Of a stretch of DNA of 63,272 bases, positions 3,301-60,737 are shown piece after piece. The translations under genes and the position numbers were made by a program. How positions within the stretch are numbered: the stretch's first letter is position 1; every line of letters starts with the position of its first letter. Origin of the DNA: Peptococcaceae bacterium (GTDB lineage: Bacteria > Bacillota > Desulfitobacteriia > Desulfitobacteriales > Syntrophobotulaceae); the NCBI GenBank assembly GCA_012839895.1, contig DUML01000077.1, positions 1 through 63,272 of the forward strand, in the 5' to 3' direction. The notes under the pieces are model-generated. The model ran no database searches. It saw only the letters and a program-made list of their open reading frames with translations, and was not told the origin of the DNA.

Positions 3301-4639
3301 AATCCTGCCCCGGAAGCTTTATGAAAGCCCCAAACGGGTATTGTTTACGGAAGAAATGAGAAAAGAATACACTATCCTTTCCCCGCAGATGGCGCCTATC
3401 CATTTTGAGTTGGTGGAAGAGGCCGCCCGCCTTGAAGGTTATCGCATTGAAGTCTTGCCGGATGTTGAAGTCGGAGCGGTGGAAGAAGGCCTCAAACACG
3501 TCCATAATGACGCCTGTTACCCGTCCATTTTAGTTGTGGGGCAAATTATGGCAGCTTTAAAATCGGGCCGTTATGACTTAAACCGGACGGCAGTAATTAT
3601 GTCCCAGACCGGTGGGGGCTGCAGGGCCAGCAATTATATTGGCTTTATCCGCAAAGCCTTAAGAGATGCCGGAATGCAGCATATTCCGGTTATATCTCTT
3701 AACGCTTTGGGCATTGAAACAAACCCTGGCTTTAAAATTACCAAGAGTATGCTGAAACGCTGTGTAATGGCTATGGTCTACGGGGATTTATTAATGCGGC
3801 TTTCTAATGCTACCAGACCTTATGAGAAACGGCCGGGGGAAACAAACGCTCTGGTAGAAAAATGGCTAAAGGAGCTTAAACCAAGTCTGGCTGATTTAAG
3901 CATTCGTAAATATCATGCCAACATCCGCAAGATTATTCGTGAATTTGATAATTTAGAGATATTGGATATTAAGAAGCCTAAAGTAGGGGTAGTCGGTGAA
4001 ATTTTGGTTAAATTCCACCCCTATGCCAACAACTATATTGTTGATATCCTGGAAAAAGAGGGCGCTGAAGCAGTAATGCCCGATCTGCTTGACTTCTTCC
4101 TTTACTGTCTACACAATGGCATTTATAGCCGGAAAAAGTTAGCCGGAAGCCTAAAAGCTAACCTTCTTTCCCGCTATGTTATTTGGCGGATTGAAAATTA
4201 TCGCCGGGTAATGAAAAAAGAACTAAAAAGAAGCAAACGCTTTTATCCACCAAAGTCTATTTATGAATTGGCCGATCTGGCGGGTAAAATAATGCACTTG
4301 GGTCACCAGACCGGGGAAGGCTGGTTTTTAACCGCCGAAATGCTGGAGTTAATTGAAAGCGGCGCTACTAATGTAGCCTGTCTCCAGCCTTTTGCCTGCC
4401 TGCCAAACCATATTACCGGCAAAGGAATGGTTCGAGAAATTAAAAGACATTACCCGGAAGCGAACATTGTGCCGATCGACTATGATCCCGGTGCCAGTCA
4501 TGTTAACCAAGTGAACAGAATTAAACTCATGCTTTCGGTTGCTTTTAAGAAAATGGAAGAAAACAATACTGTCCATGAAGTACTGACAGCCGAAACTTCG
4601 GAAGGCCCGTTAATTTCTGAACAAATTATAGCCAAGTAA
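341..4639 (+). CDS. Acyl-CoA dehydratase activase, double ASKHA fusion with HgdB/DUF2229-like C-terminal half
   Basis: The 1,432-residue protein contains two BadF/BadG/BcrA/BcrD-type ATPase domains in tandem. Each opens with an ASKHA phosphate loop ([10 protein letters not shown] near residue 8, [10 protein letters not shown] near 323) and carries a Cys-bearing glycine loop ([21 protein letters not shown]) and a later Cys (ASRCGVF; GTRCTVF). In HgdC-type activases such cysteines bind a [4Fe-4S] cluster between subunits. A CGLCGNNC cluster follows near residue 607. The second half resembles DUF2229 and the 2-hydroxyglutaryl-CoA dehydratase D component, with conserved cysteines and a [10 protein letters not shown] motif. 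Such large fused proteins are common in anaerobic Firmicutes; the substrate is generally unknown. By family it would couple ATP hydrolysis to low-potential electron transfer. An AGGAG ribosome site precedes the ATG. No separate dehydratase subunits are adjacent, so the physiological reaction cannot be named. Confidence 0.88.
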
Positions 4640-11093: not shown

Positions 11094-11744
11094 TTGGAGT
11101 ATTTTCTAATCGTTATTTATTGTGTGTTTTGTTACATATTAGGCTGGTTCTTAAGCGGCTATTTTGTAGTGCGCTTTTTGGGGCACATGGATATCCGCCA
11201 AGAGGGAAGCGAAAATCCCGGCGCTTTAAACGCCGGGAGGGTTCTAGGAGCCAAAGGTTTTATCCTGACTTTACTGGGGGATGGGGGTAAAGGTGCGGCG
11301 GTTGTGGCTTTTGGGTTTCAGCTGGGGTTTTCCCAGGAGGTTGTTCTCCTTGGTTTAACAGCCGCAGTAGCCGGCCACATCTGGCCGCTCCCCTTTAAGT
11401 TCCGCGGAGGAAAAGGGGCTGCGACTTTTCTCGGAGGGCTTTTAATCTACCATTCTCCCAGCCTGCTCTTCTTATTAGCGGTTACGGCCCTTGGCCGGTT
11501 ATTTTGGAGGGAATTTACAGCCTGTGGGCTCTTGGCTGTCTTAATCTGGCCTATTTTTTTCTGTTTTGGGAATGGCCAGGGAGAGCGGGGCTTAATGTTA
11601 ACGGCGCTGTCCGGAGTGTTGACAGCAATTATTCTGTTGGCCCACCGTCAGAACATCCGAGGATATTATGAAAAGTATTACAGAAAAAAGGATTTACAGA
11701 AAAACGCTTCAGGAGTGAGGGACAAAAATGGCCATTACTTATAA
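11094..11744 (+). CDS. PlsY-like glycerol-3-phosphate acyltransferase family membrane protein
   Basis: The 216-residue protein has several membrane segments and the three PlsY signature motifs: GSENPGALNAGR (PlsY GSGNPGATN), LLGDGGKGAA, and GHIWPLPFKFRGGKGAAT. A late HRQNIRGYY matches the HRxNI motif. PlsY transfers the acyl group from acyl-phosphate to glycerol-3-phosphate in the membrane. Departures such as Glu for Gly in motif 1 suggest a paralogue rather than the main PlsY. TTG at 11094 is the start, with GGAGG about 12 bases upstream. It overlaps the next gene by 17 bases, so the two are co-transcribed and possibly functionally linked; an acyltransferase next to a GNAT-aminotransferase fusion hints at a lipid or amino-lipid product, which is speculation. 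Confidence 0.75.
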   Translation: MEYFLIVIYCVFCYILGWFLSGYFVVRFLGHMDIRQEGSENPGALNAGRVLGAKGFILTLLGDGGKGAAVVAFGFQLGFSQEVVLLGLTAAVAGHIWPLPFKFRGGKGAATFLGGLLIYHSPSLLFLLAVTALGRLFWREFTACGLLAVLIWPIFFCFGNGQGERGLMLTALSGVLTAIILLAHRQNIRGYYEKYYRKKDLQKNASGVRDKNGHYL

Positions 11745-13289
11745 AATTGCTTCCACTGCCGAGGAATTTGAACAGATTCACCGTTTAAACTATCAAACTT
11801 TTGTCCTGGAAATCCCCCAGCATAGCCCCAATGAAGAAAAGAAACTTGTGGACCGCTTTCATCTCCAGAATACCTACCTGATAGCCTGTGCTGCAAACAA
11901 AGTGGTTGGAATGGTGGCCGTGCGCGACCAAAGGCCTTTTTCCCTGGATGAAAAATTGGAAAATCTAGACCGGTATCTTCCCAAACATCAGGCTGTCTGT
12001 GAAATAAGGCTGTTAGCTGTTGAGAAAAAATACCGTCAAAGCAGGGTTTTTTTTGGCCTGGCTCAGTTTATTGCTAATTACTGCCTGGAGCAGGGCTATG
12101 ATTTGGCAATAATGTCCGGCACAGTCCGGCAGCTTAAATTGTACCGCCAGATGGGATTTGTACCTTTTGCTAAGTTAGTTGGTACGGAGGAGGCCCTTTA
12201 TCAGCCTATGTACCTGACGAAAGAAACTTTTCTGGCTTCTTTAGCAGGCCGTCTCCGTTCCTGCCGGCTATCCTTCCTGCCGGGCCCAGTACCAATCAGA
12301 CCGGAGGTTGCCGCTTCCTTGCAGGGTGAGGCTATCTCTCACCGTTCCAAAGCTTTGCAAAGGCTTATGGCTGGGGTTAAAAAGAAACTTAAAGCTAGAA
12401 CGGGTTCTCCCCATGTCCAGGTCCTGCTCGGGACGGGAACCCTGGCAAATGACTGCATTGCAGCACAGTTAAAACTGAAAGGAGAAAAGGGGCTTATCCT
12501 GGCCAACGGGGAGTTTGGCGAGAGGCTAATTGATCACGCTGCCAGAGCAGGGCTTCAATATGCCGTTTATTCCCAACCCTGGGGGCAGCCTTTGGACCGG
12601 GCTGCCATAGCCGCTCTTCTCCAGAAGGAAAAGGCTAAATGGCTCTGGGCTGTTTCGGGGAGACATCAACCGGGATGCTTAACGATCTGAAAATGTTAAA
12701 AGAGTTGGCGGCACAGTACAAAGTCCGCTTATGCTTGGATGCCATCAGTGTCCTGGGCGTCCTGCCCTTGGATTTAAAAGATGTCTATATGGCTTCGGGT
12801 GTCAGCGGTAAAGGTCTAGGGAGCTATACCGGCTTGGCTTTTGTTTTCCACCAGGAAGAAATAGAGCCTTGTCCTACTCTTCCCCGTTATTTAGATCTGG
12901 GGCTCTACCAAAAAAACGGGAGTATTCCCTTTTCCCACTCCTCTAATTTGCTCCAAGCTTTGCATACCGCTTTGGAAGAAAATTATTTAGAAAATTATGG
13001 GGTGCTGAAGAAAAACTTTAGTTTTCTCTACCGGGAGATTAAAAACTTAAGTCTACCGATTCTTGTGCCCGAGGAGTTGTCCATGCCTTATATCCTGACC
13101 ATCCCTCTCCCTGCCGCGAAATCAGCTGTGGATTTAGGGGATAGACTTGCTTTGTACGGTTATAAGCTTCATTATGAAAGCGCTTACTTGCGGGAGAGGA
13201 ACTGGCTGCAAATCAGTATCCTCGGCCGGGAAGAAGGAGAAATCAGGGAGATGTTAAATGTTTTGCGGAAAATCAGCAAAGACTATTAA
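11728..13289 (+). pseudogene. GNAT acetyltransferase-class V aminotransferase fusion, interrupted by one frameshift
   Basis: Codons 1-165 form a GNAT-like N-acyltransferase domain (VVGMVAVRD, CEIRLLAVEKKYRQSRVFFGL, YRQMGFVPF). The remainder is a fold-type I, class V aminotransferase (PucG/alanine-glyoxylate type). The first frame runs to 12690; the aminotransferase continues in another frame from about 12660 to 13289. The junction lies in TTTCGGGG (about 12653-12660): inserting one base would join ...KWLWAV to ETSTGMLNDL, the expected core. The PLP lysine is probably in SGKGLGSYTG near 12810. Total length is 1,562 bases, one short of a whole number of codons. It may be a recent mutation, an assembly error in a homopolymer, or less likely a programmed shift. 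Ribosome site AGGAG precedes ATG 11728. Both halves are otherwise intact. Confidence 0.75.
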
Positions 13290-33111: not shown

Positions 33112-33858
33112 TTAGTACTCTAGCATTTTTTTCAGTATACCTATATTCCTTTTACTGACAAGGACTGTATCTTTAATATCCGCAAAGCCGAGTTCTAAGT
33201 TGGTTTTGGAATAACTGATAAACCTTGACACCTTATCCAGATTAACCAGATAAGAACGGTGGCAGCGGAAAAAATTACTGTTCTGGAGTTTGCTTTCGAA
33301 ATATTCCAAAGTGCTGGTCGAAGTATACATCCTATTTATTGTCCGTATTAAGACGGTTTTATCATTGGCTTCAAAGAAATAAATATCTTCCGGTTTTAAA
33401 AGAATAATCTCTTCGTCACAATTGACGAAGATTTTTTTGGCTGATTCTTTAAATTGCTGATTAAGTTGAATGATATTATCCGGTTCTATTCGCTTAGAGT
33501 CGAACCTTAGCAGTTTATCTATGCATTGGTTGAAGCGTTCCTGGGTCAAGGGCTTTAAGAGGTAATCCATAGCATTTAGCTCAAAAGCTCTTAAAGCATA
33601 TTCATGAAAGGAAGTTATAAAAACAATGTTGGTTTGGGGAAGCAGCCGGACAATCTGTTCCGCCAGGTAGAGACCGCTGAATTCCGGCATGCTGATATCC
33701 AGGAAGACAATTTGGGGCCGGAACCTTTTAATTTCCTCTAGGGCTTCCTTGGGATCGATATATTGGCCGATGATTTGCACCTTGCCGTTGACAGCGGACA
33801 TTTTTTGCAACTGATTTAAAGCAGCAATTTCATCGTCGATAGCTATGGCTTTAAGCAT
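33112..33858 (-). CDS. LytTR-family response regulator
   Basis: The 248-residue protein has an N-terminal receiver domain (AIDDE acidic pair, phospho-Asp in VFLDISMPEFSG near residue 53, switch Thr in FITSF, Lys in LLKPL) and a C-terminal LytTR DNA-binding domain (about 145-245; FFEANDKTVLIRT, FFRCHRSYLVNLDKV). LytTR regulators bind pairs of short direct repeats and often control surface, biofilm or virulence genes. It overlaps the end of the histidine kinase gene by 8 bases. The divergent giant surface-protein gene is an obvious candidate target. Confidence 0.9.
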   Translation of the reverse strand: MLKAIAIDDEIAALNQLQKMSAVNGKVQIIGQYIDPKEALEEIKRFRPQIVFLDISMPEFSGLYLAEQIVRLLPQTNIVFITSFHEYALRAFELNAMDYLLKPLTQERFNQCIDKLLRFDSKRIEPDNIIQLNQQFKESAKKIFVNCDEEIILLKPEDIYFFEANDKTVLIRTINRMYTSTSTLEYFESKLQNSNFFRCHRSYLVNLDKVSRFISYSKTNLELGFADIKDTVLVSKRNIGILKKMLEY

Positions 33859-35773
33859 AAAACATCCTCCGTTCCATGGGGAAAATCAGAGTGACTTCCG
33901 TGCCTCGCCCTTTCTCGCTTTGAATTTTAATATCATTATTGTAATACAACTGCATCCGTTTACGAATATTCTTCAGAGCTAGGCCGTTTCCGGAAGACTT
34001 GCTCTCTTGCCGGGCATTGTCTTCTTGGCGATTTTTCTCATCATGAAATAAGCGGTAAAGCTCAATTTTGCTCATGCCCGTACCGTTGTCGCGAACGCTG
34101 ATTACCATGTCCCCATTATTTTCTTCTTTGGCCGAGATGAGTATTTCCAGCCTTTCGCCGCGGAAACCATGCTTTACGGCATTTTCCACCAGCGGTTGGA
34201 GGAGAAAAGGCCGGATCATCCGGTTGAGGCATTGTTTGTCAATTTCCAATTTTAAGTCTAGCTTAAAATTGAAACGGACATTTTGCATATTAATAAAAGG
34301 AAGAAATTATTCCCAATTCCTCCTGCACAGGGATGAGTTCATCGTGAATCACCGAGTCGTATTTGAATTTGCTTCTAAGAAAATGACTCAGTTCATCCAG
34401 TAGTCTCTTGGACTCTTGGGGGTTTTCGTCAATCAAATCCTGGATGTTATTTAAGACATTACAAAGAAAATGAGGTTTGATTTGAGATTGCAGCAGCTTG
34501 AGCTGGGTTTCCACGGTTTGTTTTGCTCTGGTATATTGTTCCGAGATGTTAATGAAGATTAGATAGATTTGGCAGAAAAGAAACACTAAGAAAGCCAGAG
34601 CGTAAATGTGGGAGGTATTGTAGTCTAAACTTCTGTTTTCTACGTGCAAGGCATCATTTATCACGGCCATTAAGAGGAGAAGGCAACCAATGATGACGAC
34701 CCCCGAAGAGGAACGGGTTTTAATGTAATTTCTCAGCACCACTAAAAAGGCATACGTAAAAGCTATCAAGACAACCAAGATATAAACGCGGACAAATTGC
34801 GTAAATATTCTTGGCGTCGCCACAAGTGTAAAAAGAATCAGCAAGCCTGAGAAGAAGGTAATAGCCAGGTAAATATTCCGGTTGCATTCGTTTTTGTACA
34901 TATTATAAATAAACATGGGATAAAAAAGAGCCCCCAGTGGCATAGTGATATACTCGAGCCTGACCAGGGCTTCAAAGGGAAGGAAATCAATTAAATTGGT
35001 GATGGCAATTTCCCTTACTGCATTTTCTCTCAAGGCGGAAAATATACAAAACAACCCGAGAGAAAGACAGGGGAAATTTTTTCAATAAGGCTGAATGAAA
35101 GCAGGAAAATGGCCATAATTGAGAGGATGCCGAATAAGATGTAGCTTCTCATTAGATTTACTTCCCGGTATTTAAGAATGTCATCTTTGTTTCCGATGAG
35201 AATGCCTTTCCACATTCCCCCTTTGGCGTGATGAAAATTGGAAATGTGGACGACAAGATCAAGCTCCGGGGTGGTAGGGTTGTAGAAGGCCACTCCCGGT
35301 TTCCATTGGGGAATTTCCTCTTCTTTGGAGGTGCCGGTACGCCCGTTTTGGGCAACCAACTCCCCGTTAATATAGAGCCTGTAGGAACTGGACATATCCG
35401 GCAGCTTAAGCCCAATTTGGCCGGTGTTTTCGGCGAGCCTGATTTTTAGGCGGTATGAACCGTAGCCGTCAGCTCCCATAAGTTTTCCGTCATAAGCAAG
35501 GTTGTTCCACAAGGCAGGCACATCGATATATGAGGGTGCGGGTTCCTGTTTGGAGAGGGGATCAATAAAAGCAAAAGGATAGAAAGCCCAATTGCCCGCC
35601 AAAAAAACCGCGCCGCCTTGGGCAAAATCGAGGTCATGAAGGTCAAGAAAGCCTTTTTCAGCTTCTTTGGTCGGTCTATTGGACAAGGAGTCAAAGACAA
35701 AACTATAAATAATGTAAACCATCAGGACCAGGCAAGTTATAGCTAATAATCTGTCCAGTTTCAGTTTGCGCAT
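33851..35773 (-). pseudogene. LytS-like 7TMR-DISM sensor histidine kinase split by two frameshifts
   Basis: Three successive frames together encode one kinase of about 640 residues. The first (35773 to about 35045) has an N-terminal membrane helix, a 7TMR-DISMED2 jelly-roll sensor (VPALWNN, GYGSYRLKIRL) and the first of the seven membrane helices. The second (about 35045-34290) has the remaining helices and the His box LQSQIKPHFLCNVLNNIQDL. The third (about 34290-33851) has the HATPase core (PLVENAVKHGF, DNGTGM, GNGLALKNIRKR). The breaks fall beside TTTCTCTCGGG and CCTTTTATT; each needs one base to restore the frame. All catalytic motifs survive. ATG 35773 follows GGGGGA by 7 bases. This is either a recently broken gene or assembly error. 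Confidence 0.8.
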
Positions 35774-35906
35774 AGGGAAATCCCCCGCTACTAAGTTTCC
35801 ATTCGAAACATACCTCAAGACATTCAAGTTCTATTTAGCGTCACTGGCGAAGAAAATAATACCATTTACGAAAAATTTCGTTAAATAAAACCAATTTCTT
35901 GTAATA

Positions 35907-35928
35907 TTATATCATGATTATATCATGA
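35907..35928. repeat. 11-bp tandem repeat upstream of the giant gene
   Basis: TTATATCATGA occurs twice head to tail (35907-35917, 35918-35928). The 11-base period puts both copies on nearly the same face of the helix. It lies 280 bases upstream of the giant gene and 135 upstream of the histidine kinase start. Confidence 0.7.
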
Positions 35929-35980
35929 GCATGTTGTGCCCGCCATAAAATTCTCATTCGAAAAATTTTATCCAAACAAT

Positions 35981-36019
35981 ATGTTCATGCCGTTTATGAA
36001 CTTTTATGTTCATGCGGTT
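35981..36019 (+). promoter_or_regulatory. Direct-repeat pair, candidate regulator site for the giant gene
   Basis: ATGTTCATGCCGTT (35981-35994) and ATGTTCATGCGGTT (36006-36019) differ at one of 14 positions and are 25 bases apart start to start. Between them ATGAAC/GTTCAT also forms an inverted repeat. A TATACT hexamer follows at 36031-36036, so the second copy is where a -35 element would be. LytTR regulators recognise paired direct repeats, though usually about 21-22 bases apart. Confidence 0.5.
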
Positions 36020-36069
36020 GCTTCGAGCAGTATACTATGTTTTCAGCTAAGACTTGAAGGGGAAGAAAA

Positions 36070-36151
36070 CATTGGCGACAGAACCTGGAAACAGGGGCAA
36101 TGCAGAGTTTGGTCGAAAGAAAAGGGTAAGTCGTAGCGGAGAATGTTCTCC
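36070..36151 (+). promoter_or_regulatory. Structured 5' leader of the giant gene
   Basis: CATTG (36070-36074) pairs with CAATG (36098-36102) around an inner CCTG-GAAA-CAGG hairpin with a GNRA-type tetraloop (36084-36095). Downstream GGAGAA/TTCTCC (36138-36151) is a perfect 6-bp hairpin with a 2-base loop. The region ends 40 bases before the ribosome site GGAGGAGGAG of the giant gene. It does not match the c-di-GMP, purine, TPP, cobalamin or glycine riboswitch consensus as I know them. The stretch 35828-36209 contains no gene. Confidence 0.45.
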
Positions 36152-36209
36152 CTAACGGGAAGTTTGTAAAAGAAATGAGTAATTCTTAAATAACTGGAGG
36201 AGGAGAAAA

Positions 36210-60600: not shown

Positions 60601-60621
60601 ATAAAAATAGGAATACTTAAA

Positions 60622-60682
60622 AAGTCAGTATACATAAGTCAGTATACATAAATCAGTATACATAGATTAAATAAGTATACAT
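60622..60682. repeat. 14-bp tandem repeats with GTATAC cores
   Basis: AAGTCAGTATACAT at 60622-60635 and 60636-60649, AAATCAGTATACAT at 60650-60663, and a degenerate fourth copy ending AAGTATACAT at 60682. Each unit contains the palindrome GTATAC. They lie between rubrerythrin and its apparent terminator. Confidence 0.75.
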
Positions 60683-60737
60683 AGATTGGCATGCAAAAAA
60701 AGAGATATTTGCTTTTTTTCAAAGCTTGCTGCTTGGT

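Follow-up and report, generated by a model that had tools for sequence, protein, structure and literature searches.

Two direct-repeat sets in the divergent intergenic region between a LytTR two-component system and a giant surface protein gene: a candidate control region

We propose that the 436 bp between the start of a sensor kinase gene and the start of a gene for a 7599-residue surface protein form a divergent control region, in which a tandem extended -10 promoter serves the kinase/regulator operon and a two-box operator lies on the promoter of the giant gene. Our confidence in this combined reading is about even. The region is part of a 63,272-nucleotide stretch of a Peptococcaceae genome (contig DUML01000077.1 of assembly GCA_012839895.1), hereafter called the window, and it is a control region of an ordinary kind. 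On the minus strand, sigma-A RNA polymerase would start the kinase/regulator transcript from two overlapping TGATATAAT boxes contained in an 11-bp tandem repeat, without a good -35 box. On the plus strand, the giant gene would be transcribed from the hexamer TATACT (36031-36036) with a start near 36043; this promoter would also lack a good -35 box, and the two 14-bp boxes of a second repeat set would fall at about -63 to -49 and -38 to -24. A transcription factor would control the giant gene through this pair of boxes. The likeliest single factor is the adjacent LytTR regulator, which could act either as an activator that supplements the weak -35 or as a repressor that covers it.

The initial annotation had described an 11-bp tandem repeat and a 14-bp direct-repeat pair in this divergent intergenic DNA, and our re-reading of the sequence found both, correctly placed. 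The tandem consists of two exact copies of TTATATCATGA on the plus strand (35907-35917 and 35918-35928). The two plus-strand copies of the 14-bp repeat, ATGTTCATGCCGTT (35981-35994) and ATGTTCATGCGGTT (36006-36019), are identical at 13 of 14 positions, with the consensus ATGTTCATGC[C/G]GTT; they lie 25 bp apart from start to start, leaving a gap of 11 bp, and can be extended to 15 bp, TATGTTCATGC[C/G]GTT, from 35980. Among 2000 dinucleotide-preserving shuffles of positions 35828-36209 (382 bp), two contained a tandem repeat of 11 bp or more, and seven contained a pair, within 60 bp, of repeats of 15 bp or more that differed at no more than one position. When intergenic regions of 120 bp or longer were sampled from the same genome, 16 of 71 reached either of these thresholds and 10 reached both. 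The repeats are locally non-random, yet no rare thing in the intergenic DNA of this genome, and because equally strong ones are found in so many of the sampled regions, the repeats alone are little proof. A search for the same repeats upstream of other surface genes had been suggested as a check; a whole-genome search allowing up to three mismatches found no second occurrence of either pair. Single 14-mers with at most two mismatches matched the genome 53 times, including the two copies in this region, compared to 27 matches for a reversed control. Direct reading of the sequence also revealed a perfect inverted repeat with 8-bp arms, ATAAAATT-N11-AATTTTAT (35945-35971), in the interval that separates the tandem from the 14-bp pair; it is A+T-rich and may be a chance product.

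The tandem lies upstream of two minus-strand genes, encoding a sensor kinase with 7TMR-DISM, His_kinase and HATPase domains (33851-35773) and an intact 248-residue response regulator (33112-33858) with receiver (Response_reg PF00072, E 8.9e-19) and LytTR (PF04397, E 3.2e-25) domains. On this strand the tandem reads TGATATAATCATGATATAAT, in which TGATATAAT, a perfect extended -10 box, occurs twice (35925-35917 and 35914-35906), the copies being one helical turn apart. Full-consensus extended -10 boxes of sigma-A/sigma-70 promoters do not require a good -35 box. The tandem resembles such promoters (TGnTATAAT) in its full-consensus boxes, which precede the kinase gene in its own orientation, and differs from them in carrying two tandem copies, 11 bp apart. 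More generally, the word TGNTATAAT behaves like a promoter element in the part of the genome surveyed: in approximately 0.2 Mb, 10 of its 22 sites, including the two in the tandem, were in non-coding DNA no more than 250 bp upstream of an open reading frame on the same strand, compared to 1-3 of 7-17 sites for permuted control words. Given the perfect boxes and this enrichment upstream of genes, the tandem is most simply explained, and in our view best read, as the predicted promoter of the kinase/regulator operon rather than as the site of a second regulator. The initial annotation had taken the two repeat sets to suggest two regulators; since the tandem can be explained as two extended -10 boxes, the second of these is not needed.

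The giant gene (36210-59009, plus strand) is uninterrupted and encodes a protein with a signal peptide, RTX-like repeats and three C-terminal CWB2 anchors. The signal peptide and the three C-terminal CWB2 domains are shared with CWB2-anchored cell-wall proteins of Clostridia-type bacteria, whereas the exceptional length of 7599 residues and the divergent pairing with a LytTR system set this gene apart. TATACT is likely its -10 box, for which the best -35 candidates, at spacings of 16 or 18 bp, match only three of six positions. Relative to this predicted promoter, the second 14-bp copy covers the -35 position, as the initial annotation had anticipated. An operator is suggested because the weak -35 lies under a direct repeat. 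Within the 25-bp units, 14 of the first 15 bases are shared and the remaining 10 are almost all unlike, and because only the first 15 bp of the units are alike, two separate boxes are favored over a recent plain duplication of 25 bp. The 14-bp pair is on these grounds a probable two-box operator on the promoter of the giant gene.

Published work bears out the general premise that LytTR regulators bind direct repeats, which is their usual mode of binding (PMC4847170, PMC6193735). Known sites are built from repeats of 9-11 bp separated by 10-13 bp (PMC4847170, PMC6193735), with a period of approximately 20-22 bp that places the boxes on one face of the helix (PMC6193735, PMC4847170, PMC2838878), and are usually located 4-11 bp upstream of the -35 box (PMC6193735, PMC4847170). 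For VirR, a half-turn shift between the boxes strongly reduced activation (PMC2838878). Like the operators of AgrA, HdrR/BrsR, YpdB and VirR, the 14-bp pair is a near-identical direct repeat near a promoter (here a predicted one) with a weak -35, beside a LytTR regulator gene; unlike them, it has a period of 25 bp, or approximately 2.4 helical turns, and its second copy lies over the predicted -35 rather than upstream of it. An exception to the usual placement is CoxC, whose sites overlap the -35 (PMC11347149). For RcoM1 and CoxC, which contain a LytTR domain, half-sites of the forms TTCNNGCA and TTNNNGCN are reported (PMC11347149), and TTCATGC within the 14-bp copies fits them as TTCNNGC. The operators of these two proteins have three repeats at a spacing of 12-13 bp, compared to two copies at 25 bp here, and RcoM1 and CoxC are one-component CO sensors, whereas the protein encoded here is a response regulator. 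In both 14-bp copies, TATGTTCAT agrees with the consensus of the LytTR family at eight of nine positions. A scan of the region for LytTR-consensus pairs gave a best score of 16 out of 18, which was equaled in 147 and exceeded in 17 of 300 shuffles and is therefore at chance level. Our literature search for LytTR control of giant CWB2 proteins found no papers.

Three LytTR matches were found in the genome, and a second complete-looking LytTR system is located on another contig (C101, 1-12631). There, a hybrid 7TMR-DISM kinase with HisKA, receiver and His_kinase modules is followed by a split regulator gene, a gene for a TPR protein, and a giant gene that runs to the contig end. The giant protein of C101 matches that of a relative (G036) at 41%, and the N-terminus of the G036 protein in turn matches the giant protein of the window at 45%; judged by these comparisons, the giant genes next to the two complete-looking LytTR systems of the genome belong to one family. 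In a relative from the same family (G009), the orthologous LytTR system is flanked by SLH-domain surface proteins; the pairing of LytTR systems with giant or S-layer-type surface genes is seen in the window, in C101 and in G009. No LytTR system was found in the 14.5 kb that were read upstream of the G036 giant-gene operon. A BLAST search with the intergenic DNA against 61 relatives matched only the genome itself. The repeats are also absent from the intergenic regions beside the regulator orthologues in a Tissierellia metagenome assembly (L055, the closest, with 60% identity) and in G009 (46% identity). Because the repeats are missing beside these two orthologues and are unique in the genome, no regulon can be proposed.

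These observations bear on several alternatives to the reading proposed above. One is that neither repeat set is bound by anything, both having arisen neutrally through slippage or small duplications in the A+T-rich intergenic DNA. The frequency of comparable repeats in sampled intergenic regions is consistent with this, as are the long tandem arrays elsewhere in the genome, such as thirteen 19-bp units in contig C92, and no cross-species conservation of the repeats could be shown. Neutrality accounts less well for 14-bp copies that are near-identical when the sequences separating and following them are dissimilar, or for the presence in the tandem of two full-consensus extended -10 boxes at a site where one would look for a promoter, and we consider it rather unlikely. 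A similarly low probability attaches to the proposal that the tandem, rather than being a promoter itself, is the site of a second regulator and precedes a kinase promoter at 35884-35856. Counting against our assignment is another minus-strand extended -10 candidate, TGGTATTAT, which ends at 35856 and belongs to the arrangement TTAACG-17-TATTAT, with TG before the -10, 22 bp downstream of the tandem; the tandem would then sit immediately upstream of the -35, a classic activator position. However, promoter matches of this quality are at chance level (two found, compared to 1.8 expected in shuffles), whereas the perfect TGATATAAT boxes of the tandem are rarer and are enriched upstream of genes in this genome.

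The 14-bp pair admits further alternatives of its own. The inverted core ATGAAC (35996-36001, minus strand) between the two direct repeats makes a palindrome-binding repressor a real rival, since GTTCAT-N7-ATGAAC-N6-GTTCAT presents three alternating half-sites, which may be taken as a pair of overlapping palindromes across the -35, an arrangement typical of a repressor. An unrelated regulator of the kind that binds inverted repeats would fit the related giant-gene operon in G036, where a TetR-type regulator gene is located divergently upstream in place of the LytTR system. Yet the arms of the inverted repeat are only 6 bp long, shorter than the direct repeat, and the window contains 11 chance occurrences of GTTCAT and 15 of ATGAAC; we regard this alternative as improbable, though worth keeping in view. 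Somewhat better placed, if still doubtful, is the strict version of LytTR control, in which the adjacent regulator binds the pair as an atypically spaced operator and the giant gene is the output of the two-component system. The adjacent, divergent arrangement of the kinase/regulator and giant genes argues for it, as do the recurrence of LytTR systems beside giant surface genes, the agreement of TATGTTCAT with the family consensus and the fit of TTCATGC to the RcoM1 and CoxC half-sites, of which those of CoxC overlap the -35 as the second copy does here (PMC11347149). Against it are the period of 25 bp, compared to the published 20-22 bp, together with the strong reduction in VirR activation upon a half-turn shift (PMC2838878); the consensus score of 16, which 164 of 300 shuffles matched or beat; and the lack of such a repeat near the orthologous LytTR systems in L055 and G009. 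Similarity of the region to CodY, LexA and Fur boxes was rejected by eye.

Under the two-box operator that we favor, the adjacent LytTR regulator is the likeliest single candidate for the factor involved: it is plausible by its neighborhood, and the spacing of the pair departs from that of known LytTR sites. The suggestion in the initial annotation that this protein is one of the regulators stands in part. Its intact domains, its position and the location of the pair on the predicted giant-gene promoter speak for it, and the 25-bp period, the consensus scan and the orthologous loci speak against it. If this regulator controls the giant gene, the locus would offer a simple handle on the timing with which a bacterium produces one of its largest and costliest surface proteins, and the rules for the spacing of LytTR sites would be extended; if it does not, the region is one more divergent promoter region. 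In either case, a hypothetical second regulator is no longer required to explain one of the repeat sets.

The regulator has both domains expected of a LytTR two-component system, and in this assembly an intact cognate kinase is lacking. Alignment with the intact 633-residue orthologue in L055 indicated that all kinase domains are present in the window, in three frames, with frame shifts near 35030-35070 and near 34290. The C101 locus is the reverse, with an intact hybrid kinase and a frame-split regulator, and in both split genes the interruptions coincide with short homopolymers or lie close to them. Either sequencing error or real decay may be the cause. The intact 22.8-kb giant open reading frame in the same contig as the split kinase argues against errors being frequent everywhere. 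If the kinase frame shifts are real, the regulator of the window would depend on another kinase. It is conceivable, although very improbable, that a LytTR regulator reading half-sites 25 bp apart and half a turn out of phase controls the 7599-residue protein, possibly through a kinase that is not its neighbor, for example the hybrid kinase that is intact at the second locus.

The predicted 5' leader of the giant gene (36043-36209, plus strand; approximately 167 nucleotides) was considered as a possible riboswitch. It could form alternative hairpins, in which UUCUCC pairs either with GGAGAA or with the ribosome-binding site, and its folding was slightly better than that of shuffled sequences (z -1.4). 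A search of Rfam gave no match at the gathering score and no relevant match up to an E value of 5, and no similar leader was found at other CWB2 loci. With no Rfam family, a weak folding signal and no counterpart, the riboswitch was dropped.

Several other features were recorded. On the plus strand at 11728-13289, two overlapping open reading frames look like parts of a single aminotransferase-type gene that a frame shift interrupts, and tandem 14-bp repeats (about AGTCAGTATACATA) lie at 60608-60699 between SLAC1-type and rubrerythrin-type genes. With 62 matches to the CWB2 domain, spread across many contigs, the genome is unusually rich in cell-wall proteins, and the giant gene is one of many genes for CWB2-anchored proteins in it. 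Contig C92 contains arrays of 19-bp units (4113-4397, thirteen steps) and 20-bp units (1-100) that have a common CCTGAGC core, and these arrays adjoin clustered CWB2 genes.
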